Positions 1,439 to 19,641 of a stretch of 21,024 bases of DNA are shown here, piece after piece. The notes under the pieces are model-generated. The model saw nothing but the letters and a program-made list of their open reading frames with translations, had not been told where the DNA came from and ran no database searches. The position numbers and the translations under genes are program-made. The stretch's first letter is position 1; each line of letters begins with the position of its first letter. This DNA is from a virus. The DNA lies in IMG/VR virus record IMGVR_UViG_3300010885_062190, positions 1 through 21,024 of that record, one strand, 5' to 3'.

Positions 1439-4400
1439 ATGGCACAAACTGCACGACAAACAGCAATATTTGGAGTAGAAGATTGGAAACGCCTGTATCA
1501 AACATACAGAGAAGCCGACTTCCAAAGCTACGACTTTGAAACCTTACGTAAAAGTTTTGTAGATTATCTGCGTTTGTACTATCCAGAAACGTTCAACGAT
1601 TACATTGAATCGTCGGAATTTATTGCTATTCTGGACGTTATGGCCTTTATGGGTCAGTCACTGGCCTTCCGTAACGACTTAAACGCCCGAGAAAACTTCT
1701 TAGATACAGCCGAGCGTCGTGATTCTGTGGTACGCCTGGCCAATCTTGTCAGCTACACACCCAAGCGTAACCAAGCTGCACAAGGCTATATCAAAGTAAA
1801 TTCTGTTCAGACCACAGAAAGTATCACAGACTTCAACGGCGTTAACTTATCAAATGTCACCATCAACTGGAATGATCCCACTAATCCAAACTGGTTAGAA
1901 CAGTTTACCTACATTGTGAATGCCAGCTTGATCGATAGTCAAAAATTTGGCCGTCCGGGCAATAATGCTGTGTTACAAGGCATTCGAACCGACGAGTACA
2001 CCATCAATTTAGTACCAGGTTTCTTGCCTATTATTCCTTACTCATCTGTTGTTGATGGTATTAACATGCCGTTTGAAATTGTCAGCGGCACCAGTAGCGG
2101 TCGAGACTACATTTACGAACTGGCACCACAGCCCAGTGGTGCATTTAACGTGCTGTACCGCAACGACCAACTGGGTTTTGGATCAGGCAACACTGGCTTT
2201 TTCTTTTTGTTCAAGCAAGGCACTTTACAAAATCAAGATTTTAATTTAGCAGAAGCTATTCCCAATCGAGCAGTCAATATCAATATCGACGGCATCAACA
2301 ATCAAGATTATTGGTTGTACGAGCTTACCAACGTGGGAACTATTGCCAGCCAATGGAAATATGCAGAAAGCATCTATGCCGCAGCAGTTGAACAATTGGC
2401 ACCAAATCAACGTAAAATTTATTCTATAGCCAGTCGTGCCAATGATCAGATTACCTTGACATTTGGTGATGGTGTATTTGCAGAAACACCAGTTGGATTC
2501 TTCCGAACCTATGTACGTGCAAGTAACGGATTACGTTATATCATTAATCCAGAAGAAATGCAGTCTGTACAAATTCCCATCAGTTACATCAGCAGATTTG
2601 GTCGTTTAGAAACTATTACATTCACATGCGGGATTGCCAACCCTGTTAGTAATGCACAACCACGCGAAACAATTGAAGAAATTAAACAACGTGCTCCTGC
2701 ACGTTACTATACACAGAATCGTATGGTCAACGGCGAAGACTATAATCTTTTTCCGTTTACAAGATTTAATAGTATTATTAAAAGCAAATCAATTGTGCGT
2801 TCAAGTGTGGGTACCACACGGTATATTGATTTAAATGATCCCACTGGAAAATATAGTTCTACAAATATTTTTGCATCTGATGGCATGTTTTATGAAGAAA
2901 ATGTGTTGCCAACATTTAACTTTGATTGGGTAAGCACCAACGATATTGTAGATGTAATTGCTAACTCAGTTGAACCTACGCTGAGTTCTCGTGCAATGAC
3001 ACAGTTTTATTATGCTAATTTTCCGCGTCCTAATTTGTTAGTTATAAATTTAGCATGGAATCAAAGTACCACTGTGGTCAATGAAACATCTGGATACTTC
3101 TACAATATATTCAATAATGCACCTCAGTCAATAGGAAGCTATGCCAGCAACAATGCCAAGTATATTACACAAGGGTCGTTGATAAAATTTATTCCACCGA
3201 CTGGCTATTTCTTTAATGCAAACAATCAGCTTGTGGCCGGAGTACCAGTTCGTGCAGATGAAAAATTGGAAATTTGGGCAACTATAAGTGGTGTCATCTT
3301 GGACGGTACCAATTCTGGGTTAGGTAATTTATCCAACGGTATAGGTCCTGTTGTGGTCAACAACTTTGTACCAACAGGTGCTATTGCTCAAGAAGTAATA
3401 CCTAAATTTAATAATACTCTAACTACTGTACTGGAACAATCAATATTGCAACAAGTTGAATTGGTTAGAAATTTTGGGCTGGGTTATAATAATCTTACCA
3501 GCACCTGGTATCTCATCACCAGTACTAACCTGGCACAAGATGCACCATTCAGCCTACAGTATGCACAAAATGCACAAGGATTAGGTCTTGACGCTTCATG
3601 GTTGATACAGTTTCAAGCTATTCAAACCACAGGATCTTATACTGTGACTTCGCGTGGCCTAGATTATATTTTTGCCAGTGTAATAGAAACACGATTCTTC
3701 TTTGATGGCAGCGGAAAAGTTTATGACAGCAGAACTGGTTCAGTTATCAATGATTTTATTAAAATACTAAAAACTAATTCTAGACCAGATTCAAATTATC
3801 CGCTGTCTGCAGATGTAACCACAGATATTATTGCACAACCTGTGCAAAGTGACGGATTTGTAAATGACTATCAAGTAGTTGTTAGTTATCGTGACAGTGA
3901 CTCAGACGGTGTGGCAGACAATCCTGATTTCTTTGACGAAGTTGTAGCACCTTTAGTTAATCCCACTACAAAGTATGTATTTTTACAGCTGACAGTGGAT
4001 TTTAACAATACCGAAAATTATCTTCCAGTAGCAGCCGGAGTGGTTAATTCTTCTTATGCTACTAGTGACGCAATTGAATTAGTCAAAAGCGAATATGTTG
4101 ACGGACAAATTTTTTATGCATATCAGGAAGATGCATTTTATGAATTGGACGTAAATGTAACCAACGGAATAATACAAAGAACTCTGATTTCACGTACAGA
4201 CTTTGTCAGCAGAGTAGGACGTCAGAGTTTGTATTTCCAATACAGACACAATAGCCCATTGACTAATCTGATAGATCCCGGAGTGGTTAATATCATTGAT
4301 TCATATGTGGTCACACAAGAATACTATACTGCATATCAGAATTATGTAAAAGATACTACAGGAACTGTGCCCGAACCAGACCAGCCAACTGTTGATGAAC

Positions 4401-4906
4401 TCAATACTGCATATGCAGCATTAAACGATTACAAAATGATATCTGACAATTTAGTACTCAATAGCGTGGTATTTAAACCGTTATTTGGTGCAAAAGCAGC
4501 ACCAGAGTTACGTGCCACAATCAAAGTGGTACAAGCACAAAATACTACAGCCAGTGTCAGCGAAATAAAGAGCCTGGTAATTCAATATGTCAATACGTAT
4601 TTTACAATTGACAAATGGGATTTTGGTGATAGCTTTTTCTTCTCCGAGTTGTCGGCTTATCTACATCAGAATTTAGGATCAATTGTGAGTTCTGTTGTAT
4701 TAGTACCGCTGAATCCGCTTAAATCATTTGGTGATTTATATGAGATCAGATCTGCTGCCAACGAAATTTTTGTGAGTGCAGCTACGGTGGCCGATGTAGA
4801 AGTAATTACAGCACTAACACAAAGCAATATTCGCAGTGCAACATCTGTGTCAGGTCTGTATCCTAATAGTATCAGTCAAGGTACTTCATTTGGGAGTAGT
4901 TACTAA
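1439..4906 (+). CDS. 6: Baseplate wedge subunit, gp6-like, enlarged (1155 aa)
   Basis: This is the gp6-type wedge protein, which in T4 forms the continuous inner ring that links wedges around the hub. The N-terminal block, residues about 30-112 (YYPETFNDYIESSEF, LDVMAFMGQSLAFRNDLNA, then LANLVSYTPKR), is the segment typical of T4-like gp6. A baseplate-J-like strand FGDG is at 342-345, and a conserved GEDYNLFP segment lies near 430. The C-terminal region, about 1060-1130 (DSFFFSELSAYLHQNLGSI and SFGDLYEIRSAANEIFV), also fits. T4 gp6 is 660 aa, so this protein is nearly twice that length; the extra material lies mainly between about 550 and 1040. An Asp-rich loop at 819-833 (DSDSDGVADNPDFFD) resembles a calcium-binding thrombospondin type 3 or EF-hand-like loop. 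ATG 1439 has only a weak GAG at 1431-1433. The stop TAA shares one base with the next ATG (TAATG), indicating translational coupling. Confidence 0.88.
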   Translation: MAQTARQTAIFGVEDWKRLYQTYREADFQSYDFETLRKSFVDYLRLYYPETFNDYIESSEFIAILDVMAFMGQSLAFRNDLNARENFLDTAERRDSVVRLANLVSYTPKRNQAAQGYIKVNSVQTTESITDFNGVNLSNVTINWNDPTNPNWLEQFTYIVNASLIDSQKFGRPGNNAVLQGIRTDEYTINLVPGFLPIIPYSSVVDGINMPFEIVSGTSSGRDYIYELAPQPSGAFNVLYRNDQLGFGSGNTGFFFLFKQGTLQNQDFNLAEAIPNRAVNINIDGINNQDYWLYELTNVGTIASQWKYAESIYAAAVEQLAPNQRKIYSIASRANDQITLTFGDGVFAETPVGFFRTYVRASNGLRYIINPEEMQSVQIPISYISRFGRLETITFTCGIANPVSNAQPRETIEEIKQRAPARYYTQNRMVNGEDYNLFPFTRFNSIIKSKSIVRSSVGTTRYIDLNDPTGKYSSTNIFASDGMFYEENVLPTFNFDWVSTNDIVDVIANSVEPTLSSRAMTQFYYANFPRPNLLVINLAWNQSTTVVNETSGYFYNIFNNAPQSIGSYASNNAKYITQGSLIKFIPPTGYFFNANNQLVAGVPVRADEKLEIWATISGVILDGTNSGLGNLSNGIGPVVVNNFVPTGAIAQEVIPKFNNTLTTVLEQSILQQVELVRNFGLGYNNLTSTWYLITSTNLAQDAPFSLQYAQNAQGLGLDASWLIQFQAIQTTGSYTVTSRGLDYIFASVIETRFFFDGSGKVYDSRTGSVINDFIKILKTNSRPDSNYPLSADVTTDIIAQPVQSDGFVNDYQVVVSYRDSDSDGVADNPDFFDEVVAPLVNPTTKYVFLQLTVDFNNTENYLPVAAGVVNSSYATSDAIELVKSEYVDGQIFYAYQEDAFYELDVNVTNGIIQRTLISRTDFVSRVGRQSLYFQYRHNSPLTNLIDPGVVNIIDSYVVTQEYYTAYQNYVKDTTGTVPEPDQPTVDELNTAYAALNDYKMISDNLVLNSVVFKPLFGAKAAPELRATIKVVQAQNTTASVSEIKSLVIQYVNTYFTIDKWDFGDSFFFSELSAYLHQNLGSIVSSVVLVPLNPLKSFGDLYEIRSAANEIFVSAATVADVEVITALTQSNIRSATSVSGLYPNSISQGTSFGSSY

Positions 4907-7900
4907 TGGCTACACGTCGCACCGTAGATCTATTACCTGAAATTTTCCGCACCGATACTAATAAGAAATTTTTAGGTGCAACATTAGATCAGCTAACACA
5001 AGAGCCTAATTTTAAACGCACACAAGGATATATAGGAAGCAAAGTTGGGCCCGGTGTCAATCCTGCAGATTACTACATAGTTGAGTCATCAGCTGTACGT
5101 AACGATTATCAGTTAGACCCTGGTGTGGTTTTTTTAAAACCAGACACTAACACAGCAGTAGATGCTATAACATATCCTGGCATCATTGATGCACTTGCTC
5201 TTAAAGGTGCCAATACTCAGAAACAAGATCGCTTATTTGAAAGCGAATATTACTCGTGGGATCCTTTTTCGGATCTTGACAAGTTTACCAACTATAGTCA
5301 ATACTATTGGTTGGCAGCCGGCCCAACATCAGTGGATGTATCTGGTACAGACGTTCCTTCTACCGACTCATGGAATATTAATCGTGTCACTAACGCATAC
5401 GAATTCAGTGACGTGGCAGGAAACAATCCTGTTATTACATTGATGCGTGGCGGCAATTATGAATTTGTAGTAAATCAGACTGGTTACAATTTCTGGATAC
5501 AAGCAGCTCCTGGGGTTGAAGGTCGCATGCCTGCTACTCCTAATATCAGCAGCAGAGATGTGCTGGGCGTTGTCAACAACGGCGAAGATCAAGGCACAGT
5601 AACTTTCAATGTGCCATTGAATACGGCACAAGATTTTTACTATACCTTAACTACTTTGCCAATGCCGCTGGGCTATCAAAACGGCACAGTTGATCTAATT
5701 ACTGGGTTAAAATTTAATCAACTTAATAACGTATACGAAAGTGAATTTTTATCTCAGTGCCCTGGTGGTATTGACGGTATTACAAACTTACGAAATCGCA
5801 CTATAGTATTCACTAACACTATCACTGATGCTCAAGACGGTGGCTGGCAAGTGTCAACTCAGTTTGATCCGTTACTGCAATTGCCCGACAACAATGGACT
5901 GAGTGGAAGTTTTGATACTACCACTTTTGATCAGACAACTGACATTGATAGTCAGGCACAGCGATATAGTGTATGGCAAATCCAATATATCAATGACGAA
6001 GCCGGCAATCCGTTCATGCGATTAAACAGTATCGCTCCAGTACCAAATCTCAATAAATTTACTATCAAGTTTGGTGCTCAAAATGCCAGTACCCAATGGT
6101 ATAAAGATGCGTCTGGATATTTCGAACAGATTCCGTTGTTAACTGCGGTGTTAGATACACTTTGGTATCAAGATAGTGTAAACCCTTTGATATTTGGACA
6201 GATTAAATTAGTTAATCCAGGCGAAGAATTAATTATTGATGCCAACGAAATTATTGGTGCAAAAAATTACACCAGCCCAAATGGGGTAGTTCTAACCAAT
6301 GGATTAAAAATACAATTTCGCGGTGCTGTTGAACCACCGCAGTTTCAGAATTTAGAATACTATGTTGAAGGTGTAGGAACAGGTCCAGGTATTGCTGCCA
6401 GAGTAGGATTTATCGACGGCGAAGCATATTTTGGTACGTTCCATACTGTGAATGGTCAAAAGATAACAGGACTGGCCAATACAACAACATTCCAACAGTA
6501 CATCTACGACACCATAGAAGAAAGTCTGTTAAACACTGGAACAGGTGGCCCGGCAGGAGCACCTCTGCCCAATACACCAGTATTAGGTGCCACTGCAGGC
6601 AATGGTATTAAACTTGTTCCAGTGTCTGAATTTGTTACGCCAGAAACATATACTCAAAGCAGCAGTATTCCTTTTGACAGCACCAGCTACGATTCTTCTC
6701 CGTATGATGCCAGTTTGAATGCACCAGAAATTCCAGACTATATTACTATTAATCGTGCCAGTCACGATCGCAATGCATGGACACGTAGCAATCGCTGGTT
6801 CCATATTGATGTAATCCGTGCCACTTCTGCATATAACAATCAGATCTTGGTACTTGATAATGAACTACGTGCCAAACGACCCATCATTGAATTTAGAGCC
6901 AATCTTGATTTGTACAATTTTGGTACACAAGGAAAAGATCCAGTAAACATCATTGACTTCGGTGCCACAGATGCCCTTAGCAACATAAATGGTCAATTGG
7001 GCTATAGTATCGACGGTTATACATTTATCAACGGCAGCAGAGTAATATTTGCCGCTGATTTAGATCCACAGGTACGCAATCAAATTTATGAAGTGCAATT
7101 TATTGATCCTGACAATTCAGGTACCTTCATAATAGATCTAATACCAGCTGCTGACAGTCTGGTATTGTCTAAGCAGACAGTAGTATGTCTAAGTGGCATA
7201 GTACAACAAGGAAAAAGCTATTGGTTTGACGGAGTGTCATGGGCGTTAGCACAACAAAAAACTCAAGTAAATCAGCCTCCGCTGTTTGATATTTTTGACA
7301 GCGCAGGTATCAGCTTTTCTAATAGATTAACATACCCCAGCACAACTTTTGTCGGAAGTAAACTATTTGGATATGCACTTGGATCAACACAGATTACTGA
7401 TTCTGTGTTGGGATTTCCGCTGAAGTTTCTTAATATTAATAACGTAGGCGACATAGTTTTTGAAAACTATTTGTACACTGACTCCTTTATATATGTCCGC
7501 GACAGCGTCAGTTATCAAGAGCAAGTAAGCATTGGATTTGCTCGCCAGTACACGGATCGGATTTCTTTTAGCAATCTCATTGGATGGCAACCAGCAGCAG
7601 AAGAAAATCGCAGCCGCCAAGTATTCAAATTCACCTACAATGGTTTGCCACTGGTAATTGATATTCCTGTTGACACCAATACTGCATTTGCTCCGCTACA
7701 ACTTTTTCAGGAAGGTGTATTCATTGACCCCACTGGATATGTGTACGAAATAGTCAATAGTACCACTGTGATTACTCTGCTTGAATCCGTTGTGAATCCA
7801 ATTCTGATTGGCACAATAATTGAAGTACAAATAATCAGTAATTTTGCCAGTACCACTGGATTTTACGAAATACCCTTGAACTTGGAAAACAACCCACTAA

Positions 7901-10900
7901 ACGAAAATAGTGGAACATTTACCTTGGGTACCATCCGGACTCATTACGAAACCATTGGACAAAATCTTAGAACAATTCAAGGACCCATCGTGGGCGCCAA
8001 CAACACTCGCGACCTTGGAGATATTTTACGATATGGTGAACTAATAGTTCAAAACTCTGCACCTCTTGCGCTAACAGGTGTGTTTCTTAGAGAAAAACAA
8101 TTTGAACTATTCAATGCCATTGAATTCAACAGCAGAGAATATGCCAAGTACAAAGCTTTTATGTTGGATCTTGTAACCGATGGCGACTTTGAAAATCTGT
8201 CAGCCAATCAAGTATTGGATACAGTACTTCAAGAAATTAGTCTTGGCCGTAGCAACATAAGTCCATTCTACTGGTCTGACATGATTCCGTCGGGCGAAAC
8301 CTATACAGAAAACACCTACACCTATACTGTTATCAGTACTCCCACATTCGACACGTTGCAAACTTACGACTTTACTGCATCAAATTATTTGGGATTATTG
8401 GTATACTTAAACGATGTTTTGTTAACCATCAACTACGATTATACTGTTGCTGTTGACGAGCCTAATTTAACTATTACAGTACCGTTAGCAGTTGGCGATA
8501 CCATAACTATACGTGAATACCCAAGAACATACGGAAGTTATGTTCCAAACACTCCAACCAAGATGGGATTGTACCCGGCATACTTGCCGGCTATATATGT
8601 GGACAACAGCTATATTACTCCCAAGTTGGTAGTAAGAGGACACGACGGTTCAATTACTCTGGCATTTAACGACATTAGAGATCAGGTGTTGTTAGAATTT
8701 GAAAAACGAATCTTTAACAATCTGAAAATAGTTTCACCAATTCCGTTAGTTGTAACAGATGTTGTGCCAGGCCAATTCAGAACTACTGATTATGACCTTG
8801 GCCAAATAAACAATATACTAAGTCAAGACTTTTTAAGCTGGGTAGGCTGGAATAAACTTGATTATACAGAACAGTATTATAGAACTACTGACCCGTTTAC
8901 CTACAACTACAGTCAAAGCAGTGATCGGCTGACAGGTGAACCTGTACCTGCCGGTGCATGGAGAGGACTCTATAACTATTTCTACGACACTTATACCCCT
9001 GACACAACACCTTGGGAGATGTTAGGTTTAATGCAGAAACCCACCTGGTGGGAAGTAGAATATGGTCCTGCACCATACACCAGCGGCAACACAGTTTTGT
9101 GGGATGACTTGGCAGCAGGTCTTATTAAAGATCCTCTTGATACCAGAATTGATCCACGGTATATACGCCCTGAATTATCATCAGTAATACCGGTTGGATC
9201 AGAAGGCGAGCTGTTAGATCCTTTGGTTGCTGTGATTGGTAATTACGATGCAACCAGTTTCCGTCGTAGCTGGACTTTTGGCGACGATGGTCCTGTAGAA
9301 AATACCTGGCGTACAAGCAGTGCTTGGCCATTTGCAGCAATGCGATTACTGGCGTTAACTAAGCCAGCCAAGTTCTTTAGCTTATTCTCTGATAGAGATC
9401 GCTATGTGTACAATCAGCCGCTGGAACAATTCCTATGGGACGAACGTTATCGTCTAAATGCCAACGAGCTAACACCATTATACGGAAACGGTGCAAGCAA
9501 AGCCAGTTACCTGGATTGGATTATTGATTACAATTGTCAGTTGGGTATAAACAGCACTGACAATCTCACTGTGACATTAAACAATATTGATGTCAGACTC
9601 TGCTGGAGAGTAGCAGGTTTTACTGATAAGAATTATCTCAAAATCTACACAGAAAGATCTACGCCTGGCAGCACTAATGCTGGATTGATACTGCCAGATG
9701 AAAGTTATTCGTTATTGCTTTACAAAGATCAGCCATTTGAACAAGTGACCTACAGTTCTGTTATTGTGCAAAAAGTTGATACTGGTTGGGCAGTACTGGG
9801 TTACAGTACGCAGAGACCATTTTTTGAAATATTGGTGTCACGTACTGCCGGAAGAAATACAATTATTTCTGCTGCAGAGACGCAGGTCAGAGTTGCAACA
9901 CAACATACCAATAATGTAGTTCAGGTTCCTTACGGATACGTGTTTACAAATTTGGCCAGTGTGTGTGACTTTTTGGTCAGCTACGGTGCGCTACTTCAAA
10001 AGCAAGGTTTCCTTTTTGAATCAAGAGAGAATGGTTATATCTTAGATTGGTTCCAGATGTGTCAAGAATTTATATACTGGAGTCAGCAGGGTTGGGCAGT
10101 TGGATCTATCATAAACTTAAACCCGGCTGCTACCCGCATATCAATTTCTCGTCCGCAAGCAATTGTAGATAGCATTTTGACATATTCGCCGGATGACATT
10201 ATTCTAAATCAGAATCGCCAGGCACTGCCGATAGGTGATTTAGTAATTGATCGTATTGACAACTTATTCCGCGTGTCAACACTCACAAACAATACCATAA
10301 ACTTCTTAAACCTAAGGTTTACCGCATACGAACACATTGTTATCTTGGACAATCGCAGCATTTTTGCGGATCTTATCTATGACAAGATAACTGGCGCACG
10401 ACAGAGTCGAGTTTTAGTGTCCGGTTGGGTTACCAACGATTGGACTGGATTAGTTAACGCACCTGGATTTGTACTAAATCAGGACAACATAATTGAGTGG
10501 TCGCCAAATCGTAAATATGCCAAGGGCGAAATTGTTTTATTCAAGAACGAGTATTGGTCGTCGAGCACAATTATTCAGCCAAGTCAAGAGTTTAACTATA
10601 ATCTCTGGATCAAGAGTGATTACAATCAAATACAAAAAGGACTATTGTCCAATGCTGCCAACTCAAGCGACCAACTGGCAGCAGCATACAGCGTGTACAA
10701 TGCCAATCTTGAACAAGAAGTTAACTTATTCAGCTACGGTCTAATTGGATTCCGTCCAAGACAATACATGCAGGCATTGAATTTGGATGATGTAAGTCAA
10801 GTCAACTTATATCAACAGTTCTTAGGCACAAAAGGTACTTTACAATCTGCCGAATTGTTCAGTCTGGCTAATCTTGGTAAGGAAACAGCCACATATGATA

Positions 10901-13900
10901 TCAATGAATACTGGGCAGTTTTACGCAGTACATATGGTGCCACTGCCAGCCAGAGCTTTATTGATTTACGATTAAATGAAGCATTATTGCACAGTGATCC
11001 TTGCTTGGTTCAAGTGGTATTACCGCAAGAAGAATCATCTGCTGACCAGGCCATACTACTACAAGATGTTTGGAGATCCAGTGTAAAACTCACATCCACC
11101 GACATATTCCCGACTACCACTTTGTTGCCCACTGATGTTGGGTTACCGTCTGCTGGTTACGTTAATTTTGACGATGTTGATATAAATGTATTTGACTTAG
11201 AAACTCTGCAACTGGTTAGTTCTCAACTGAGTCCAACTGCCATTGGAGTAGGAACCACTATATGGGTTGCCAAGATAAACGAGTATGAGTGGAATGTATA
11301 TCGTGCGTCGCTGGTACCGGGCAGCATAACATCGGTCAGCAACAATCTCAACGGCCGAGCACTGGTACAATTTACCAAACCACACGGATTGGTAGTGGGT
11401 GATATTTTAATAATCAAATTCTTTGATGCTGCTGTAGACGGAATATATCGTGTACAGTTTATTTCTGGAATAACTTCGTTATTGATTGATTTTGTATTTG
11501 TTGGCACACAAACAGCATATACAGGCGTCGGAGTTGGATTTACTCTTGAATCACTACGTGTTGCCCAAGCAGCCGACATTGTGAACTTACCGTATGCACG
11601 ACCTCTTTTCCCTGGTATTAAAATCTGGGTTGACAATAACGGTGCCGGGCTATGGGAAGTTTTGGAAAAAACAGAACCCTTTACAGCATCAATTGATATT
11701 GATCCAGAAACAACTGTTGAAAATTCAAGATTTGGTGCAAGCATAAGTCAAGGATTACAAAATCTTAGTGCTCTTGTTGGAGCTCCGGGATACAATACCA
11801 CCGGAGCTGTGTACACATATGTTAAAACAGAACAAGATGTTTACGCACAGAATTCTATTTTAGAACTTGGTACCACAGATGCAGTAGGTTATGGTAATGC
11901 AACAGATATGGGCAACCAGGCCTGGGCCGTTATTGGCGCAAGCGCCAGTATGAATAATGCAGGATATGCAGCGGTTATATATAGAAATCCTGCCAGCAAC
12001 GCCTTCCAGCAGTGGCAATTACTGTTAATTGACCCGGCAGCAGCAGTAACTCCTACTGATGAATTTGGTTATTCTGTAACAATGAGCCTGGATGAACGCT
12101 GGCTTTATGTGGGCGCACCAGGTGGCAATCGTGTTTATGCTTACGGCCGCGTAGATTATCAACCACAGTCTGTAGAGTATTATGCCACCGGAACAGAAAC
12201 TTTATTCAATTACAGTGATTATATTGTTGTTGACACAGGTGATCAACTGGTAGTTGCACTGGAAGGTGTTACTCTAACTTATGGAGTAGACTATATAACC
12301 AATGGCGTGTATATAGTATTAACAACACCACCAACCGCAGGGCTAAAAGTCACAATCGCAAGACGTAGTACGGTATTACTACTAGGAGACGGTGTAACAA
12401 ATACATTTGACTTGTCTGACATTTATCCTGCTACTCTTGCTGTCGGTGATGACATAGGCACTTCAATCAGCGTCTATATTGATGATTCTCTACAACGACT
12501 AAAATTAGATTATGACTATGCAGCAGATAGTTCACATAATTTGGTTTTCACCACAGCACCTGCTGCCGGTACTGTGATTTCTGTTCGCGCAGAATCATAC
12601 TATGCATTGGTAGATACAATTACTGTCGGTGGGCTTGCTTCAACAGATCAATTTGGGCACAGTGTTACAACCACAACAAACGGACGTCAGTTGATGGTAG
12701 GATGTCCTGTATCAACTTATACAGATCCTGTCACAGGCGAAGTGTCCACTCAAGCAGGTTCAGTTTATGTATTTGACCGATCAGTACAAAATTTCCAAAT
12801 AACTGACACCAGCGTAGTATCGTATACTACCGAATTGGCATTAATCGAACCTACTCAAGTTGAACTAAACGGCGTATTCCTATTAAATCAAGCAGGTACC
12901 ATTGGCGGAACATATTCAATATCTTCCAACACAGTTACACTAGATACTGCTATCAATATTGGCGATACCTTAACAATTGAAACCAACCAATTTAACTTGG
13001 TACAGACAATTTACTCTGCTAACCCAGCTGCCAATGCCAAATTTGGTTATGTAGTTGATCAATGTGTGAATGATTGTAGTTTATATGTTGGTGCACCATT
13101 TGCTAATGCACCTGCTATCCAATCTGGACAGGTAGAATTTAATTTAAATCAAGCACGAGTTTATGGAACTATATCTAGTACTGTTGCTAATCCTGTACTG
13201 ACTCCGGGCGATTTTATCAGAGTTAACAGTTACTTTGTAGAAGTGACAGGAACAACTGTTGAACAATTGGCCGCAGATATAAATGCTGCCAGTGTACCTA
13301 ATGCACAAGCGGCTGTCACTAATAATCTTGAAATAATCGCAGACGGTGCAACCACTGTATTTGACGTGAATACAATATATTCAGCTGCCGATTCATACAC
13401 CGTACTGGTACTAATTAACGATGTAGAACAAATAGAAGGGGTCAACTACACTTATAATAATACTACTGAACAAATAACATTTGTTGTAGCACCTTTTGCG
13501 TATAGTGTTATAGTGGTGGTGTCTGGCAGATTAACTATATCAGCTAAAAATGTACAGGCAGCGCAGGCACTTAATAAAGTACAGGTACTGCCCGGAACAG
13601 GCACACTATTTGCAGATCTTGGCTGGCCAATTTATGTACAACTACAGACAATTGTAGCACCAGTACAACAAGACTTTGCAAACTTTGGACAAGAGTTGTT
13701 TATCAGCGAAAACACCACTGCACTATTAGTGGGTGCACCAAACGGGTCCTTGATAGAACTTACAACATTTGATGTGAACGCTGTTACTAAAACCAGCACC
13801 ACGTTTGATTCAAACAGTACCGTTTTCTTTGACACAGTACTGCAAAGCGGAGTAGTATATTCTTACGATTTCCTTCCAGCAGCCAACGCAACTGTTACCA

Positions 13901-16900
13901 ATCACGGGCAGTTTGTATTTGGTCAGCAATTATATGATGACCAGGCACAAACATCTGCACAATTTGGTGCAGCAATAGATTATACAACTGGAACATTGCT
14001 AATAGGATCGCCTGGCACAGATTTTAACGACAGTCAAGACAACAGTGGCAGCGTAGTTTCCTACAGAAATATTAATTTGAAACCAGCATGGAGTGTGCTT
14101 AGACTACAGCAGCCAGTGGTAGATGTTTCACTGCTGAACACCGTTTACATGTATGATCGTGTTGCTGGAAATACCAAACAATATTTTGATTATTTCAATC
14201 CATTGCAAGGACGACTATTGGGTGTTGTTGCTCAAAATATCAATTTCACAGGCGCAATTGATCCAGCTGAATACAACGTAGGTGCTGTTAACAATTTTGG
14301 TGGTGCTTGGCGTCAAGCACGAGTTGGACAAATATGGTGGGATACTACAAGTGTGAGATTCATTGATCCCAATCAGAACGATATTACCTACGCCAGCCGT
14401 CGATGGGGACAGATTTTCCCAGGCAGCACAATAGATGTTTACCAGTGGGTTTCAAGCTCAGTACCGCCGATTCAATACACTGGCCCAGGCGTACCGTTTA
14501 GTAACAGTAGATATTCAGTCAGCAATTCATTGAATGAACAAGGCATTGTGTCGTTGGAATACTATTTCTGGGTATCAGGTATCAACACAGTGAATACCTT
14601 TGCCAAGAAAACTCTGAGCACAACCATTATTGCACAATATATTGAAAGCCCACGCAGCAGCGGCATTAGCTATATTGCACCAATTAATGCAAACACCATT
14701 GCAATCTACAACGGAGTAGATTATATTTCTGCTCAGGATACAATTTTACAAGTCGGTTACGATCAGATTCTAAACGACAATGCAGTACACGTAGAATATC
14801 AACTGGTGGCTCAAGATCGAGCAGATGGCTTCTTGACCGACGTACTTTATAACAAGCTGCAGGACAGCTTCTGTGGATCAGATGTGGTAGGAAATCCTGT
14901 GCCAGATCCTTTCTTGAGTGTGAGCGATCAATTTGGTACGCAGGCACGCCCACGTCAGAGTATGTTTGTTAACCGGTTCTTGGCATTGAAAAATTATTTG
15001 ACTCGTGCCAATAATATTTTGAATCAGTTCCCTATATCCGAGACTCGTCGATTCTCACTGTTAAACAGCGAAGAATCAGAACCGTCACGTTCTTCTGGTG
15101 CGTGGGATCTGAGAGTGGCCAACAATGAAGAATTGTCTTATCAGGACCTGGCTGCGGTGCCAATTGGTTACAAGTATCTTGTGGCAAATAATTCTGCTTA
15201 CAATGGTCTATGGACCATCTACGAAGTAATAGCAGGGTTTGCGCCAGGGTCAAAAGTATTAGAATTGCTACGAGTCCAGAACTATGATACCAAACTATAC
15301 TGGAGTTATATCGATTGGTATGCACCGGGTTACGATCCTTTAACAAGAATACTGGCTGAAGTGCCGGTGTATTCTTCGTTGGCAACGCTTGCTGTTCCTG
15401 TTGGCAGCGTGGTTAAAGTAACTGCAAACGGCCAAGGCAAATGGGAATTGTATCAATTCTCTAATGATAATTCCTGGGCCCGTGTGGGATTACAAAATGG
15501 TACAATAGAATTTTCTAATAAACTATGGGACTATAGTGTTGGCCGTTACGGATTTGATGTAGAAGTATTTGACGCACAATTTTATGACCAAGAGCCCATT
15601 ATTGAAACACGTAAAATAATTCAAGCAATCAATCAAGAATTGTTTATTGATGATTTATTAATTGAAAGAAACCGTTGTTTGATACTGATGTTTAATTACA
15701 TCTTGAGCGAGCAACAAGCACCAAGCTGGTTAACTAAAACCAGTTTAATTGACGTTGACCATATTATACGCCAACTGGTTCCGTATCAAATTTATCGCCG
15801 AGACAACCAAGATTTTGTGTTAGATTATATACAAGAAGTCAAGCCGTACCATGTACAGATCCGCGAATTCAATTTGATATACAATGGATTTGATCAGTAC
15901 AACGGTACTGTGAACGACTTTGATTTACCTGCATTCTATGATAACGAACAGAATTTGTTTATTAGTCCAATCTTGGACGACACTGATCCACCAGTCAGCA
16001 CAACCAGTAGTCTACCAAGTACTTCTCCAATTTGGCAAATATTGCCGTGGAACCAATGGTATCAAAATTATCTATTAGAAATTGATTCTGTTACAGTGGT
16101 TGATGGTGGTGTTGGATATACTGTGCCGCCTGTTGTTGAAGTAACCGGCGATGCACTGATTATTGCTGTAATGACTGCACGAGTGAACAGTGCTGGATCT
16201 GTTATTGCAGTTGATATAGTGGACCCAGGTGTTGGTTATTTGACCACCCCGGTTATTACATTTGTAGGCGGCAACGGTACTGGCGCTCGCGCAGTGGCAA
16301 TAACAGGAAATCAATTAGTACGTAATATCCTAACTACTATAAAGTACGATCGTTATGAATATCAATCAAGCATAGTTGACTGGACACCCAACGAAAATTA
16401 CGACAACGGTACCTTAGTAAGATACGATAATCGAGTTTGGTCAGCTAATTCGGATGATAGCTCCAGCATTGAAAGTACTGCATTTGATACTGATCAATGG
16501 ACTTTAGTGCCGGCAGCCGATCTGACAGGCGTAGATCGAACCATGGGATATTATACTCCCGGAGTAAACGAAACAGGCCTAGATCTTGCACAATTAATTT
16601 CGGGCGTTGATTATCCAGGAGTACAAGTTACTGCACCAGGCTTTAATCAGAATACAGGTTTTGATGTTGGCAATTTTGATGTTAACCCATTTGATAACAT
16701 TGCTTATGGTCCAGAAGGCCGTCCAACTTACGATCCTGCCATACTTGATGCCATATATGCAAGTGAATTCACAGACCCGTATCTTGGCACACTACCCAGT
16801 TCAATCAATGTTGCCGGCGGTGCATTTGTGGACCAATACTCAAGTCATGCCCCGGAAGAACTGGTACCAGGTGCTATATTTGATACTCTGGACATGCGTG

Positions 16901-18888
16901 TTTTTACAACACCCGGTGCTGATTGGCAAGGCAACGGGCACGGATTCCCGGAGTCAACCCGCAAATATGTGTATACTGTTGATACCACCGAATTTGATTT
17001 TGCAGGATTATTACCGTATCCAATTACTTTAACAGTTTGGAACTTGTCGATAGGAGTCCAATTAATACCAGACACTCACTATACAACAGATTGGGTAAAT
17101 CAAACTGTGACAGTGACCGCAGGTGCATATGAAAATGATACTATAGTTATAACTGTATACGCACTCGGTGGCGGCAACCAGCAATATACCAATTCCTATA
17201 ATGGGTCTGACGTTGGTAATAGTTTGATTATTCCTGTTGAATACAGTTTGATTAATGAAATAGTTGTATTTGTTAACGGACAGGTAGTTACTAACTTTAC
17301 ATCGGCACAATATGGTACATATGATACTAGAATATCATTTAGTAACACTTATGGTGCCACTGATTTAGTTACTGTTACTGCAATGGGTATTCAGACTCCG
17401 CAGTACTCATGGAGTGCGCCGCAGACACAATATTTTGTAGCTGACGGTAGTTTGGCATTTACTTTGACAAACAGCCTTGAGGGAACTAACCCTGCCAATA
17501 TTATTGTAGAAAAGAATGGTGTTCGTGCCAGACCGTCTGCTGGTATTGAATATATTGACGATGGATCAAGTATACAATATTATTGTCCTACACACGTTGG
17601 ATATAGTCCTGCTTTGGTAGCCAATAACGATGTGTCTGTGTATATCAACAATGTACCGCAGATATTGGGTGTAGATTTTGTACTGGATCCATGGAATGGA
17701 GTGTCTGACGCTAGAACAGTTACATTGTCTTCGATGCCAGCTGCTGGAGCTAAGATTTTAATATCAGTGCGGACTGATGCACAATATTATCTGTCAGGTA
17801 ACACATTAATTTGGAATAATTCAGGATCGTTGATTCCAAGTCCAGGAGATATTGTTTCAGTTACTACTTGGAACGACACTGCCGAGCAAGATATATTGAC
17901 CCAGGTCTTTGTGGGTCCAATGTCCGAAGGCGCCACAGTTGCACAGGGTTATGACAGTACTACCTTCGACGAAGCGTTAGTAAGCAATACTTCTGGATCT
18001 TTTGATTTCAGTACAGGTGTACAGGTGTTAACAAATAAATTTGACACTGGACGTATTATAACTGACCCTTCGAGATTAGCAGTTACGCTGGATGGGTTTT
18101 GCTTGTTTAACGGCAATGGTTACACAATCGACGGCACATTCATTACTATTACAGGTTCTGTCATAAGTGCTGCCCAGGTTGTAGTAATTACCAGCATGAC
18201 TCAAAGTACAGTACCGACTGCGATTGCTTTCCGAATTTTCCAGGACATGCGTAGCCTACAAAGCACTTACCGTATTACCAATTCAACCACCACTGTACTG
18301 TCACAACTGTTGTCTCAAATTGGCGATATAATTTATGTGGAAGATGCTGCTGCACTTAGCGAGCCAAATCTCCCACAAGGTATATTTGGGCTGATTACCA
18401 TCAATGGTGAACGGATTGCTTATCGCTATCGTGACGTAGATAATAACACAGTCAGCGGTCTGCGTAGAGGAACTGCCGGAACAGCGGCATCTGATCATGC
18501 CGTGGGTGCAGCAGTTTACGATATTGGACTTGGTAATTTATTACCTGCCGAATACCAAAACTATATAGTATCTGACGAATTTTTATCCAATGGGGTGACA
18601 ACCATTTATACAGCCCCGGATATCAGTGTTGTCGGACTTGATTCAACGGAACTCACAGATGCAGTACAGGTATATGTAGGAGGATTATTACAATCCGGCG
18701 GCTATGAAATATTAACAGCAGATCCAGTGAGCATAGAATTTGCAGTTGCTCCTACTATTAATTATCAGATTACTATTTTGGTACTAAGAGGCGAGAGTTG
18801 GTACACACCCGGAGCAGGCACTGCCAGTGACGGCGTTCCTTTGCAAGAGCAAGAAACTTTAGCAGCAAGGTTTATACGTGGTAATTAA
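4906..18888 (+). CDS. Giant modular virion protein (4660 aa), probably baseplate or tail, at the gene 7 position
   Basis: One open frame encodes about 500 kDa. GGGAG at 4892-4896 is a good ribosome binding site nine bases before the ATG. I recognise segments recurrent in large marine-phage structural proteins: N-terminus TVDLLPEIFRTDTNKKF; RLFESEYYSWDPF near 110; PDYITINRASHDRNAWTRSN near 610; MGLYPAYLPAIYVDNSY near 1220; PTWWEVEYGPAPYT near 1385; AWPFAAMRLLALTKPAKFF near 1475; GQIWWDTTSVRF near 3145; a YIQEVKPYHVQIREF segment ending at 3655; and FVDQYSSHAPEELVPG from 3974. CBM5/12-like modules start at 1865 and 3826. FG-GAP-like propeller repeats span 2276-3060, with sandwich modules inserted. 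A double GxGY motif lies at 3726-3790, and more sandwiches follow from 4022 to the C-terminus (LAARFIRGN). I see no catalytic motif, signal peptide or membrane segment. Its place directly after gene 6 matches T4 gene 7, but homology to T4 gp7 cannot be shown by eye. Outer wedge or adhesion apparatus is my inference. Confidence 0.72.
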   Translation: MATRRTVDLLPEIFRTDTNKKFLGATLDQLTQEPNFKRTQGYIGSKVGPGVNPADYYIVESSAVRNDYQLDPGVVFLKPDTNTAVDAITYPGIIDALALKGANTQKQDRLFESEYYSWDPFSDLDKFTNYSQYYWLAAGPTSVDVSGTDVPSTDSWNINRVTNAYEFSDVAGNNPVITLMRGGNYEFVVNQTGYNFWIQAAPGVEGRMPATPNISSRDVLGVVNNGEDQGTVTFNVPLNTAQDFYYTLTTLPMPLGYQNGTVDLITGLKFNQLNNVYESEFLSQCPGGIDGITNLRNRTIVFTNTITDAQDGGWQVSTQFDPLLQLPDNNGLSGSFDTTTFDQTTDIDSQAQRYSVWQIQYINDEAGNPFMRLNSIAPVPNLNKFTIKFGAQNASTQWYKDASGYFEQIPLLTAVLDTLWYQDSVNPLIFGQIKLVNPGEELIIDANEIIGAKNYTSPNGVVLTNGLKIQFRGAVEPPQFQNLEYYVEGVGTGPGIAARVGFIDGEAYFGTFHTVNGQKITGLANTTTFQQYIYDTIEESLLNTGTGGPAGAPLPNTPVLGATAGNGIKLVPVSEFVTPETYTQSSSIPFDSTSYDSSPYDASLNAPEIPDYITINRASHDRNAWTRSNRWFHIDVIRATSAYNNQILVLDNELRAKRPIIEFRANLDLYNFGTQGKDPVNIIDFGATDALSNINGQLGYSIDGYTFINGSRVIFAADLDPQVRNQIYEVQFIDPDNSGTFIIDLIPAADSLVLSKQTVVCLSGIVQQGKSYWFDGVSWALAQQKTQVNQPPLFDIFDSAGISFSNRLTYPSTTFVGSKLFGYALGSTQITDSVLGFPLKFLNINNVGDIVFENYLYTDSFIYVRDSVSYQEQVSIGFARQYTDRISFSNLIGWQPAAEENRSRQVFKFTYNGLPLVIDIPVDTNTAFAPLQLFQEGVFIDPTGYVYEIVNSTTVITLLESVVNPILIGTIIEVQIISNFASTTGFYEIPLNLENNPLNENSGTFTLGTIRTHYETIGQNLRTIQGPIVGANNTRDLGDILRYGELIVQNSAPLALTGVFLREKQFELFNAIEFNSREYAKYKAFMLDLVTDGDFENLSANQVLDTVLQEISLGRSNISPFYWSDMIPSGETYTENTYTYTVISTPTFDTLQTYDFTASNYLGLLVYLNDVLLTINYDYTVAVDEPNLTITVPLAVGDTITIREYPRTYGSYVPNTPTKMGLYPAYLPAIYVDNSYITPKLVVRGHDGSITLAFNDIRDQVLLEFEKRIFNNLKIVSPIPLVVTDVVPGQFRTTDYDLGQINNILSQDFLSWVGWNKLDYTEQYYRTTDPFTYNYSQSSDRLTGEPVPAGAWRGLYNYFYDTYTPDTTPWEMLGLMQKPTWWEVEYGPAPYTSGNTVLWDDLAAGLIKDPLDTRIDPRYIRPELSSVIPVGSEGELLDPLVAVIGNYDATSFRRSWTFGDDGPVENTWRTSSAWPFAAMRLLALTKPAKFFSLFSDRDRYVYNQPLEQFLWDERYRLNANELTPLYGNGASKASYLDWIIDYNCQLGINSTDNLTVTLNNIDVRLCWRVAGFTDKNYLKIYTERSTPGSTNAGLILPDESYSLLLYKDQPFEQVTYSSVIVQKVDTGWAVLGYSTQRPFFEILVSRTAGRNTIISAAETQVRVATQHTNNVVQVPYGYVFTNLASVCDFLVSYGALLQKQGFLFESRENGYILDWFQMCQEFIYWSQQGWAVGSIINLNPAATRISISRPQAIVDSILTYSPDDIILNQNRQALPIGDLVIDRIDNLFRVSTLTNNTINFLNLRFTAYEHIVILDNRSIFADLIYDKITGARQSRVLVSGWVTNDWTGLVNAPGFVLNQDNIIEWSPNRKYAKGEIVLFKNEYWSSSTIIQPSQEFNYNLWIKSDYNQIQKGLLSNAANSSDQLAAAYSVYNANLEQEVNLFSYGLIGFRPRQYMQALNLDDVSQVNLYQQFLGTKGTLQSAELFSLANLGKETATYDINEYWAVLRSTYGATASQSFIDLRLNEALLHSDPCLVQVVLPQEESSADQAILLQDVWRSSVKLTSTDIFPTTTLLPTDVGLPSAGYVNFDDVDINVFDLETLQLVSSQLSPTAIGVGTTIWVAKINEYEWNVYRASLVPGSITSVSNNLNGRALVQFTKPHGLVVGDILIIKFFDAAVDGIYRVQFISGITSLLIDFVFVGTQTAYTGVGVGFTLESLRVAQAADIVNLPYARPLFPGIKIWVDNNGAGLWEVLEKTEPFTASIDIDPETTVENSRFGASISQGLQNLSALVGAPGYNTTGAVYTYVKTEQDVYAQNSILELGTTDAVGYGNATDMGNQAWAVIGASASMNNAGYAAVIYRNPASNAFQQWQLLLIDPAAAVTPTDEFGYSVTMSLDERWLYVGAPGGNRVYAYGRVDYQPQSVEYYATGTETLFNYSDYIVVDTGDQLVVALEGVTLTYGVDYITNGVYIVLTTPPTAGLKVTIARRSTVLLLGDGVTNTFDLSDIYPATLAVGDDIGTSISVYIDDSLQRLKLDYDYAADSSHNLVFTTAPAAGTVISVRAESYYALVDTITVGGLASTDQFGHSVTTTTNGRQLMVGCPVSTYTDPVTGEVSTQAGSVYVFDRSVQNFQITDTSVVSYTTELALIEPTQVELNGVFLLNQAGTIGGTYSISSNTVTLDTAINIGDTLTIETNQFNLVQTIYSANPAANAKFGYVVDQCVNDCSLYVGAPFANAPAIQSGQVEFNLNQARVYGTISSTVANPVLTPGDFIRVNSYFVEVTGTTVEQLAADINAASVPNAQAAVTNNLEIIADGATTVFDVNTIYSAADSYTVLVLINDVEQIEGVNYTYNNTTEQITFVVAPFAYSVIVVVSGRLTISAKNVQAAQALNKVQVLPGTGTLFADLGWPIYVQLQTIVAPVQQDFANFGQELFISENTTALLVGAPNGSLIELTTFDVNAVTKTSTTFDSNSTVFFDTVLQSGVVYSYDFLPAANATVTNHGQFVFGQQLYDDQAQTSAQFGAAIDYTTGTLLIGSPGTDFNDSQDNSGSVVSYRNINLKPAWSVLRLQQPVVDVSLLNTVYMYDRVAGNTKQYFDYFNPLQGRLLGVVAQNINFTGAIDPAEYNVGAVNNFGGAWRQARVGQIWWDTTSVRFIDPNQNDITYASRRWGQIFPGSTIDVYQWVSSSVPPIQYTGPGVPFSNSRYSVSNSLNEQGIVSLEYYFWVSGINTVNTFAKKTLSTTIIAQYIESPRSSGISYIAPINANTIAIYNGVDYISAQDTILQVGYDQILNDNAVHVEYQLVAQDRADGFLTDVLYNKLQDSFCGSDVVGNPVPDPFLSVSDQFGTQARPRQSMFVNRFLALKNYLTRANNILNQFPISETRRFSLLNSEESEPSRSSGAWDLRVANNEELSYQDLAAVPIGYKYLVANNSAYNGLWTIYEVIAGFAPGSKVLELLRVQNYDTKLYWSYIDWYAPGYDPLTRILAEVPVYSSLATLAVPVGSVVKVTANGQGKWELYQFSNDNSWARVGLQNGTIEFSNKLWDYSVGRYGFDVEVFDAQFYDQEPIIETRKIIQAINQELFIDDLLIERNRCLILMFNYILSEQQAPSWLTKTSLIDVDHIIRQLVPYQIYRRDNQDFVLDYIQEVKPYHVQIREFNLIYNGFDQYNGTVNDFDLPAFYDNEQNLFISPILDDTDPPVSTTSSLPSTSPIWQILPWNQWYQNYLLEIDSVTVVDGGVGYTVPPVVEVTGDALIIAVMTARVNSAGSVIAVDIVDPGVGYLTTPVITFVGGNGTGARAVAITGNQLVRNILTTIKYDRYEYQSSIVDWTPNENYDNGTLVRYDNRVWSANSDDSSSIESTAFDTDQWTLVPAADLTGVDRTMGYYTPGVNETGLDLAQLISGVDYPGVQVTAPGFNQNTGFDVGNFDVNPFDNIAYGPEGRPTYDPAILDAIYASEFTDPYLGTLPSSINVAGGAFVDQYSSHAPEELVPGAIFDTLDMRVFTTPGADWQGNGHGFPESTRKYVYTVDTTEFDFAGLLPYPITLTVWNLSIGVQLIPDTHYTTDWVNQTVTVTAGAYENDTIVITVYALGGGNQQYTNSYNGSDVGNSLIIPVEYSLINEIVVFVNGQVVTNFTSAQYGTYDTRISFSNTYGATDLVTVTAMGIQTPQYSWSAPQTQYFVADGSLAFTLTNSLEGTNPANIIVEKNGVRARPSAGIEYIDDGSSIQYYCPTHVGYSPALVANNDVSVYINNVPQILGVDFVLDPWNGVSDARTVTLSSMPAAGAKILISVRTDAQYYLSGNTLIWNNSGSLIPSPGDIVSVTTWNDTAEQDILTQVFVGPMSEGATVAQGYDSTTFDEALVSNTSGSFDFSTGVQVLTNKFDTGRIITDPSRLAVTLDGFCLFNGNGYTIDGTFITITGSVISAAQVVVITSMTQSTVPTAIAFRIFQDMRSLQSTYRITNSTTTVLSQLLSQIGDIIYVEDAAALSEPNLPQGIFGLITINGERIAYRYRDVDNNTVSGLRRGTAGTAASDHAVGAAVYDIGLGNLLPAEYQNYIVSDEFLSNGVTTIYTAPDISVVGLDSTELTDAVQVYVGGLLQSGGYEILTADPVSIEFAVAPTINYQITILVLRGESWYTPGAGTASDGVPLQEQETLAARFIRGN
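10498..10600 (+). other. CBM5/12-like module 1 within the giant protein
   Basis: Residues 1865-1898 read W-S-P-N-R-x-Y-x-x-G-E-I-V-x-F, then EYW, and close with NLWIKSD. This spacing of Trp, Tyr, Gly, Val and a second aromatic follows the short carbohydrate-binding fold (CBM5/12, chitin-binding type). Similar short modules are common in phage tail proteins, where they may bind cell-surface glycans or only add a structural fold. A second copy is at 16381-16509. Glycan binding is inference. Confidence 0.5.
11728..14070 (+). repeat. FG-GAP-like (integrin-type) propeller repeats in the giant protein
   Basis: Six copies of a repeat with Phe-Gly, about 16 residues, then Gly-Ala-Pro or a variant occur in frame. 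Phe-Gly starts at residues 2276, 2387, 2583, 2713, 2927 and 3020. The matching Gly-x-Pro starts at 2292 (GAPG), 2403 (GAPG), 2599 (GCP), 2729 (GAP), 2943 (GAP) and 3034 (GSPG). Each is followed by a strand of the G-x-V-Y-x-Y kind (GAVYTYV, RVYAYG, GSVYVFD, GVVYSYD, GSVVSYR). A degenerate seventh copy (AWAVIGASASMNNAG) lies near 2331-2350. This is the pattern of FG-GAP repeats forming a seven-bladed beta-propeller. Blades are unusually far apart (56-214 residues) because other modules are inserted. Only the last copy has an Asp-rich loop after GSPG that could bind a metal. Confidence 0.7.
12169..13530 (+). repeat. Beta-sandwich modules inserted between propeller repeats
   Basis: At least four modules share the layout: a strand with V-x-V/L-x-x-x-x-V-x-Q/T, then a Gly-x-Asp-Tyr turn, then a strand ending T-T-x-P-x-x-G-x-x-I/V-x-V. 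Clear copies are near residues 2422-2485 (TYGVDYITN, TTPPTAGLKVTI), 2489-2565 (LKLDYDYAADSS, TTAPAAGTVISV) and 2812-2874 (IEGVNYTYNN). A divergent copy lies near 2640-2700 (VELNGVFLLNQ, INIGDTLTIETN). They resemble the small sandwich domains repeated in phage tail fibres. They fall in the gaps between FG-GAP copies, so they probably project from the propeller surface. Confidence 0.55.
16078..16290 (+). repeat. Two-copy GxGY beta repeat in the giant protein
   Basis: Residues about 3726-3790 contain two copies of the pattern V-x-x-x-G-x-G-Y-x-x-x-P-x-V/I (VVDGGVGYTVPPVVEV and IVDPGVGYLTTPVITF), about 40 residues apart. The second ends in a Gly-rich GGNGTGARAVA turn. Short GxGY repeats of this kind occur in phage tail and fibre proteins; no enzyme function is suggested. 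The segment lies between the KPYHVQIREF block and the second CBM5/12-like module. Confidence 0.5.
16381..16509 (+). other. CBM5/12-like module 2 within the giant protein
   Basis: Starting at Trp 3826, the protein reads W-T-P-N-E-N-Y-D-N-G-T-L-V-R-Y and has a second Trp at 3845, then FDTDQWTLVP. The order W-x-P-N-x-x-Y-x-x-G-x-x-V-x-Y/F-x-x-x-x-W matches module 1 at 10498 almost position for position, although the two lie nearly 2000 residues apart. A short CBM5/12-type fold is likely; sugar binding is only an inference. Confidence 0.5.
16969..18800 (+). repeat. C-terminal cluster of beta-sandwich modules in the giant protein
   Basis: Residues about 4022-4630 hold at least four more modules of the type inserted in the propeller. 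They are near 4022-4085 (LIPDTHYTTDW), 4100-4165 (EIVVFVNGQVV), 4174-4290 (VSVYINNVPQILGVDF, then SSMPAAGAKILISV) and 4558-4630 (VQVYVGGLLQSGGYEIL). Between the last two is a conserved piece near 4500-4526 (TINGERIAYRYRDVD, SGLRRGTAGT) that I remember from other marine phage giant proteins. The protein ends in a Gly-rich tail and LAARFIRGN. The cluster looks like a chain of beta domains, as in a fibre or spike. Confidence 0.5.
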
Positions 18889-18889
18889 C

Positions 18890-19039
18890 ATGGTAAATAA
18901 TAACATGAATGAAAAGCAACCTACTGTAGAACAAAAACCTGTTAGAAAACCCAATGAAGCTGGGGTTTTTTCTGTTGAGGCACACGTTAAAATATATGAT
19001 CCTAACACAAAAGAAGTGTTGGTGGAGAAACGAGCATGA
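18890..19039 (+). CDS. Small 49-aa protein, N-terminal paralogue of the next gene
   Basis: This short ORF starts with ATG one base after the giant gene's stop and ends with TGA 19037-19039, overlapping the next start as ATGA. The first 22 residues are polar and Lys/Asn/Gln-rich. Residues 25-49 (GVFSVEAHVKIYDPNTKEV, then LVEKRA) align without gaps to residues 5-29 of the next protein (GPVSVEGFLKIHDPQTKEV, then FVDKHN), with 14 of 25 identical. That conservation in a different reading frame argues it is a real gene. No clear ribosome binding site precedes 18890, so it may depend on translation of the giant gene; an ATG at 18905 is an alternative start. Function is unknown. A small virion component or assembly partner of the 201-aa protein would fit the context. 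Confidence 0.6.
   Translation: MVNNNMNEKQPTVEQKPVRKPNEAGVFSVEAHVKIYDPNTKEVLVEKRA
18946..18971 (+). terminator. Possible intragenic terminator-like hairpin
   Basis: AAAACCC (18946-18952) can pair with GGGTTTT (18963-18969) around a 10-nt loop, and the 3' arm runs into six T residues (18966-18971). This looks like a weak intrinsic terminator about 60 bp after the giant gene ends, but it lies inside the 49-aa ORF. The stem has only three G-C pairs, and chance formation in AT-rich sequence is possible. Confidence 0.22.
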
Positions 19040-19641
19040 TTATGTTAGGACCAGTATCGGTCGAAGGATTCTTAAAGATCCACGACCCCCAGACCAAAGA
19101 AGTATTTGTTGATAAGCATAATGCTATACATTATGAAAACATGAGTATTGCATTAGCTCAGAGTTTGGCTGATACAAATATTGGTTATATCTATAGTATG
19201 GCATTTGGAAACGGCGGAAGCGCAGTAGATCCCACGGGAATTATTACATATTTGCCTCCCAACGTGACTGGTGCCAATGCAGACCTATACAATCAAACCT
19301 ACATTAAAGTGGTAGACCAGAATTCAGCTGCCAACACAGATCCCACAAGAAATAATCTTACAGTACTGCATACAAGCGGTACAGTTTATACAGATATTTT
19401 GGTTACATGTTTGTTGGATTACGGCGAGCCTGCTGGACAACAAGCATTTGATAACAGTACCAACTTCAACGGCGAATTTGTATTTGATGAATTAGGATTA
19501 AAAGCATGGCAAGGATCTGGCAACGATCAAATGTTAATTACACATGTAATTTTTCATCCTGTTCAAAAGAGCCTTAACAGACAAATTCAAATTGACTATA
19601 CTGTGCGTATTCAGACTTTAACTAACTTGAGTGCAGCATAA
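19036..19641 (+). CDS. Virion structural protein of unknown role (201 aa)
   Basis: I recognise this from remembered marine T4-like phage late clusters, but no defined function is known to me. It begins VSVEGFLKIHDPQTKEVF and continues AIHYENMSIALAQSLAD, MAFGNGGSAVDPTGIITYLP, VYTDILVTCLLDYGEPAGQ and FDELGLKAW, and ends THVIFHPVQKSLNRQIQIDY. The mix of beta strands and Gly/Pro turns suggests a compact virion protein; there is no signal peptide, membrane segment or catalytic motif. GGTGGAG at 19021-19027, eight bases before the ATG at 19036, is a good ribosome binding site lying inside the upstream 49-aa ORF. The four-base ATGA overlap implies translational coupling. A second ATG at 19042 is possible but less well spaced. 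A baseplate or fibre-attachment role is inferred only from its position between the giant protein and the tail fibre. Confidence 0.7.
   Translation: MIMLGPVSVEGFLKIHDPQTKEVFVDKHNAIHYENMSIALAQSLADTNIGYIYSMAFGNGGSAVDPTGIITYLPPNVTGANADLYNQTYIKVVDQNSAANTDPTRNNLTVLHTSGTVYTDILVTCLLDYGEPAGQQAFDNSTNFNGEFVFDELGLKAWQGSGNDQMLITHVIFHPVQKSLNRQIQIDYTVRIQTLTNLSAA

Follow-up and report, generated by a model that had tools for sequence, protein, structure and literature searches.

A 4660-residue protein of the phrog_10938 family encoded after gp25-like and gp6-like baseplate wedge genes

The wedges of the phage T4 baseplate and of the T6SS contain two copies of gp6/TssF and one of gp7/TssG, and the (TssF)2-TssG complex resembles (gp6)2-gp7 (PMC6300606). 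In RaK2-, 121Q-, PA5oct- and Atu_ph07-like jumbo phages, a gene of the phrog_10938 family follows straight after the gp6 homologue. The members of this family include RaK2 ORF070, GAP32_230, CBB_236, PA5oct gp355, Atu_ph07 gp180 and Phosso XYS97451, and most are named 'virion structural protein' or 'hypothetical protein' in the databases. CBB_236 (148252-158274, beside the gp6 homologue) was detected in the virion by mass spectrometry, with 21 peptides and 7.72% coverage (PMC5259590). The same holds for phAPEC6 gp245 (381.88 kDa, 17 peptides, 7.6% coverage), which is listed beside the baseplate wedge protein gp244 (PMC7247149) and was counted here as a homologue by its size and its place after gp244, not by sequence. 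The record of PA5oct gp355 carries an ESI-MS/MS note. We found no structure of any phrog_10938 member. Another giant protein, the annotated gp7 of P-SSM2 (5195 aa; P-SSM2 75005-90592, L130:5006-20593), is encoded directly after gp25-gp6.

The 21,024-base DNA analysed here, called the window, is a viral record from IMG/VR. It carries a gp25-like baseplate wedge gene (1016-1390, + strand; Pfam PF04965 GPW_gp25, E 7e-8; phrog_43), followed by a gp6-like baseplate wedge gene for 1155 aa (1439-4906, + strand; phrog_10646, E 4e-285; T4 gp6 family phrog_219, E 1e-26) and by the gene of a putative giant virion structural protein of 4660 aa (4906-18888, + strand). This order places the giant gene in the T4 gene 7 position, as had been proposed from the sequence alone. 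It was shared with RaK2, GAP32, CBB, PA5oct, Atu_ph07 and Phosso. Adjacency to gp6 is not obligatory, because the gp6 homologue of SCTP-2 lies ~92 kb from the giant gene. SCTP-2 also has a second giant ORF, of 3096 aa, directly before its family member (L086 2494-11784).

The gp6-like protein is longer than its T4 counterpart (1155 vs 660 aa). Its gp6 profile pieces (5-99, 150-334 and 392-459) were collinear in the relatives, and because they occur in order, this protein too has long insertions. Several relatives encode gp5-like hub/lysozyme proteins directly upstream of gp25. In the window, a 334-aa open frame at 3-1007, before gp25, had no match in PHROG, Pfam or cultured phages (tblastn). 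Downstream of the giant gene are a 201-aa gene of phrog_11259, with no assigned function (19036-19641), and a gene that is open at the window end (19690-21024). The latter, truncated at the window end, likely encodes a tail-pin or fibre protein. Its N-terminal and C-terminal parts match PA5oct gp359 and Phosso, and the C-terminal part is Peptidase_G2-like (autoproteolytic chaperone-like), below the cut-off.

From its ATG start, the giant gene runs as one stop-free ORF of 4660 codons. In 50 shuffles of the window, no stop-free run exceeded 185 codons, and codon-position GC was steady along the gene. Core residues 971-1860, used as the query, retrieved 80 loci. A complete giant ORF of 4184-5340 aa was present in 47 IMG/VR loci, and the remaining ones ran off contig ends, with the exception of L054. 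There, the ORF ended early (3371 aa) despite the contig continuing, through truncation, a frameshift or a shorter C-terminal arm. When compared with L002, the nearest relative (93% identical in core residues 971-1860), dN/dS ranged from 0.037 to 0.118 in all 10 analysis windows of 466 codons. The gene was also uninterrupted in the finished cultured genomes of PA5oct (11,574 bp), Atu_ph07 (13,350 bp), Phosso (13,668 bp), GAP32 (10,026 bp), RaK2 (9,981 bp) and SCTP-2 (11,424 bp). It is one real gene under purifying selection. The sequence-only reading, which had described a single stop-free 14-kb gene, was correct on this point. In three records the annotation divides the giant gene, unlike in the intact relatives: into seven small hypothetical proteins in the RefSeq K64-1 record (NC_027399.1, 55600-57732), and into three and two pieces in two Salmonella phage records (OR699182.1 and OR699181.1, respectively). 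These are probably annotation or sequencing errors.

By its profile matches, the giant gene can, despite its size, be recognised as belonging to the known family phrog_10938. The family profile matched with E 3.5e-295 in four stretches, and pieces with residues 4-141, core 1 and core 2 gave separate matches. An alignment of 41 full-length proteins showed that four regions were kept in all relatives, at residues ~1-150, 600-880, 1207-2090 and 3062-3700, with variable or missing sequence between and after them. All features within the gene are on the + strand. The N-terminal region (residues 1-150; 4906-5355) matched 57 cultured jumbo phages by tblastn, and residues 600-880 (6703-7545) matched phrog_10938. 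Core 1 (residues 1207-2090; 8524-11175; AF2 pLDDT 67) was found by tblastn of residues 971-1860 in 59 cultured jumbo-phage records, every one below 60% identity. Core 2 (residues 3062-3700; 14089-16005; AF2 pLDDT 76) was found in 57 cultured phages and contains three conserved helices towards its C-terminal end (AF2 model positions 546-626). Alignment of family members also revealed a family-wide motif, IGFxxRxYL..QVNFYxGFIxxKGT..EEWA..GxYGA (residues 1946-2012; 10741-10941). Detection of homologues in virions by mass spectrometry agrees with the earlier description of a modular virion protein; for the window protein itself, virion membership is inferred from the relatives CBB, phAPEC6 and PA5oct. 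Such a giant protein is ordinary for jumbo phages: the family is widespread, and P-SSM2 gp7 is longer.

Residues 2160-3030 comprise 871 aa in the window protein, vs 92-94 in GAP32/RaK2 and 226 in PA5oct. Neither residues 2061-3020 nor residues 3701-4660 had any tblastn match in cultured phages. The insert at residues 2276-3055 (11731-14070) holds a predicted seven-blade FG-GAP beta-propeller (Pfam FG-GAP_2, E 7.5e-9), with blade motifs at residues 2276, 2329, 2387, 2583, 2713, 2927 and ~3019. Two modules resemble CBM5/12 (chitin-binding-type-3), both carrying the motif. Foldseek matched module 1 (residues 1865-1905; 10498-10620) to the CBM12 of a V. cholerae deacetylase and to the phage Milano baseplate (prob 1.00, rmsd 1.2-1.8), as well as to a module in the Anabaena contractile injection system baseplate. 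Module 2 (residues 3826-3866; 16381-16503) matched Pfam CBM_5_12 with E 7e-5, below the curated cut-off. Both the propeller and the carbohydrate-binding-like modules had been anticipated from the sequence.

A 57-aa beta module, traced by iterated HMM, occurred in eleven copies in the giant protein and once in P-SSM2 gp7. Copies 1 and 2 are at residues 924-975 (7675-7830; E 0.003) and 1148-1205 (8347-8520; E 1e-16). Four stand between propeller blades, two of them at residues 2430-2561 (12193-12588) and one each at residues 2639-2692 (12820-12981) and 2819-2871 (13360-13518). The C-terminal variable arm (residues 4030-4626; 16993-18783) has five. Copy number was rejected as an explanation of protein length (Spearman 0.13, p 0.40). 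Residues 152-249 (5359-5652) form a beta domain that also occurs in the C-terminal part of the cyanophage gp9-like phrog_677 (E 4e-6, profile 304-397), and phrog_677 294-395 was also found inside giant ORFs of relatives. GxGYxxxP repeats (residues 3725-3800; 16078-16305; phrog_460, phrog_1922) also occur in head-closure and hub proteins. A TTTxL..GxIxIxxERIxYR..GLxRGTxGT module (residues 4461-4525; 18286-18480; hhalign E 1.7e-5, prob 78%) is present as an insertion in cyanophage gp7 too, close to the N-terminus of that protein.

The gp7-like interpretation of the sequence-only reading stood as far as the real gene, its gene 7 position and the modular virion protein are concerned; homology to T4 gp7 was not recovered by hhalign or Foldseek. 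The N-terminal region, core 1 and core 2 reached hhalign probabilities of only 0.3-1.2% against T4 gp7. Profile searches of PDB sequences gave nothing convincing, Foldseek of core 2 gave no match, and the AF2 pieces showed no PDB fold match by Foldseek outside one 48-residue module. The two pieces gave no match to the gp7 fold (5IV5), although with pTM 0.47 and 0.42 these models are too weak to exclude it. The T4-type gp7 family phrog_964 was not found in ten related genomes, all of which had the gp6 family. P2 gpI as a bridge to gp7 gave no signal (prob 0.6%; the fetched gpI relatives were near identical), and an N-terminal 'LPE' resemblance to cyanophage gp7 was not significant.

The KGT motif at residues 1946-2012 aligned with the SKGIEES helix of cyanophage gp7 (hhalign E 0.0015-0.0019, prob 14-16%) and outscored all 40 block-shuffle controls. 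In a ranking of individual P-SSM2/T4 segments against it, the N-terminus of P-SSM2 gp7 took only fourth place, and the top matches probably owe their scores to GxGY repeats present in the Atu_ph07/Phosso rows. The motif is a weak lead to a possible remnant of the gp7 core.

No gp8-like gene follows the giant gene within the window, as had been noted before. The T4-type gp8 core (profile phrog_977) and gp11 (phrog_963) were both absent from the ten related genomes. The earlier suggestion that the protein absorbed functions of several T4 baseplate and fibre genes is unsupported for gp9 and gp10, as the nearest large relatives carry gp9/gp10-type N-terminal domains on ORFs other than the giant one. 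Searches of family slices against T4 gp8-gp11 with hmmsearch gave nothing significant. Within the ORF, no core of T4 gp8, gp9, gp10 or gp11 was found, only a cyanophage gp8 insert and the phrog_677 C-terminal beta domain. The sole gp8-family match inside giant ORFs was this mobile insert (profile 186-280), outside the parts that match T4 gp8. With neither gp8 nor gp11 recognisable in the relatives, the protein may conceivably have absorbed these two.

We consider it probable that the giant protein is a single-chain virion protein of the baseplate region, which partners the upstream gp6-like protein in a gp7-like manner and carries outward, host-facing insertions. Its conserved regions would supply the third chain of the gp6 heterotrimer. 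Gene order, the presence of homologues in virions and the absence of another recognisable gp7 argue for this role, as do the giant gp7 that P-SSM2 encodes in the same slot and the likeness of (TssF)2-TssG to (gp6)2-gp7. The four kept regions may fold together as a wedge scaffold, from which the propeller, the beta modules, the CBM-like modules and the C-terminal arm would project outward. These modules could bind the host surface, dock the fibre proteins encoded next, or both; an outward, host-facing placement is suggested by the contrast between the kept cores and the fast-changing adhesion-type modules. The length would have arisen as such modules were inserted into an older wedge protein and exchanged there, rather than by fusion of identifiable T4 baseplate genes. 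The tblastn results favour the wedge assignment, with the cores matching 57-59 cultured records and the module regions none. The lack of significant T4 gp7 similarity and the distant gp6 of SCTP-2 speak against it.

These last two observations would also fit a peripheral role as a baseplate or adhesin protein, decorating the wedge or linking fibres, in which case a different, diverged gene would be the true counterpart of gp7. The abundance of adhesion-type modules points the same way. However, the other distant genera that were examined retain the position after gp6, the conserved cores far exceed the needs of an adhesin anchor, and no other gp7 candidate was found in the ten relatives, so that we regard this explanation as rather unlikely. 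More doubtful still is a bolder form of the wedge assignment, by which a wedge protein of an origin separate from T4 gp7 would fill the gp7 slot in a large clade of jumbo phages. In such a protein, one chain would serve both as wedge scaffold and as a surface for host binding (with an integrin-like propeller of seven blades, CBM-like modules and a beta-module arm), making gp8 and gp11 unnecessary.

A true fusion, in which the giant protein took over gp7 together with gp8 and perhaps gp11, would account for the missing gp8 and gp11 families in 10 of 10 relatives. Their absence at the sequence level may just be divergence, though, and the insert-only gp8 match, the gp9/gp10-type domains carried by other ORFs and the separate gp8 that P-SSM2 retains next to its 5195-aa gp7 make such a fusion quite improbable. 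Processing of the chain as a precursor into several virion proteins is very improbable. The chain is very long, and mass spectrometric coverage below 8% in the published data on relatives leaves the intact chain unproven, but the conserved cores are dispersed along it, and the accessible parts of the literature held no specific evidence of cutting. As for a fusion of several genes by an assembly or frame error, its probability is close to nil. Nothing was found in its support, and it is contradicted by selection along the gene and by the intact finished cultured genomes. With 47 intact ORFs in other contigs and dN/dS of 0.04-0.12, an assembly accident is excluded.

The results enlarge a known family of virion proteins, 3300-5300 residues long, whose function has not been explained, and they provide a usable map of kept and exchanged parts along these proteins. 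If the giant protein does fill the gp7 slot, jumbo phages place host-facing modules directly on the wedge, not on separate fibre genes.

With T4 gp7 (1032 aa), the window protein has in common the slot after gp6 and, by inference, the way of working; T4 gp7 is more than four times shorter, and no sequence or fold homology between the two was detected. P-SSM2 gp7 is likewise a giant ORF in the gp7 slot and shares mobile modules with the window protein. The T4 gp7 core is still recognisable in it, close to the N-terminus (residues 192-269; hhalign prob 90%, E 1.4e-6), whereas the window protein had no significant core homology to P-SSM2 gp7. This retained core shows that giant gp7 proteins do exist. 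Outside residues 192-269, P-SSM2 gp7 is mostly without match to T4 gp7. The cultured phrog_10938 proteins (3326-4555 aa) resemble the window protein in gene position, in homology over all four core regions and in belonging to a virion protein family. They differ in sequence, with ~23-39% identity per region, and in their modules: the FG-GAP propeller is absent or replaced, as are most of the eleven beta modules. The IMG/VR contigs L002-L081 are closer, with 49-93% identity in core 1 and complete ORFs of 4184-5340 aa, and differ from the window protein in module number and in the C-terminal arm.
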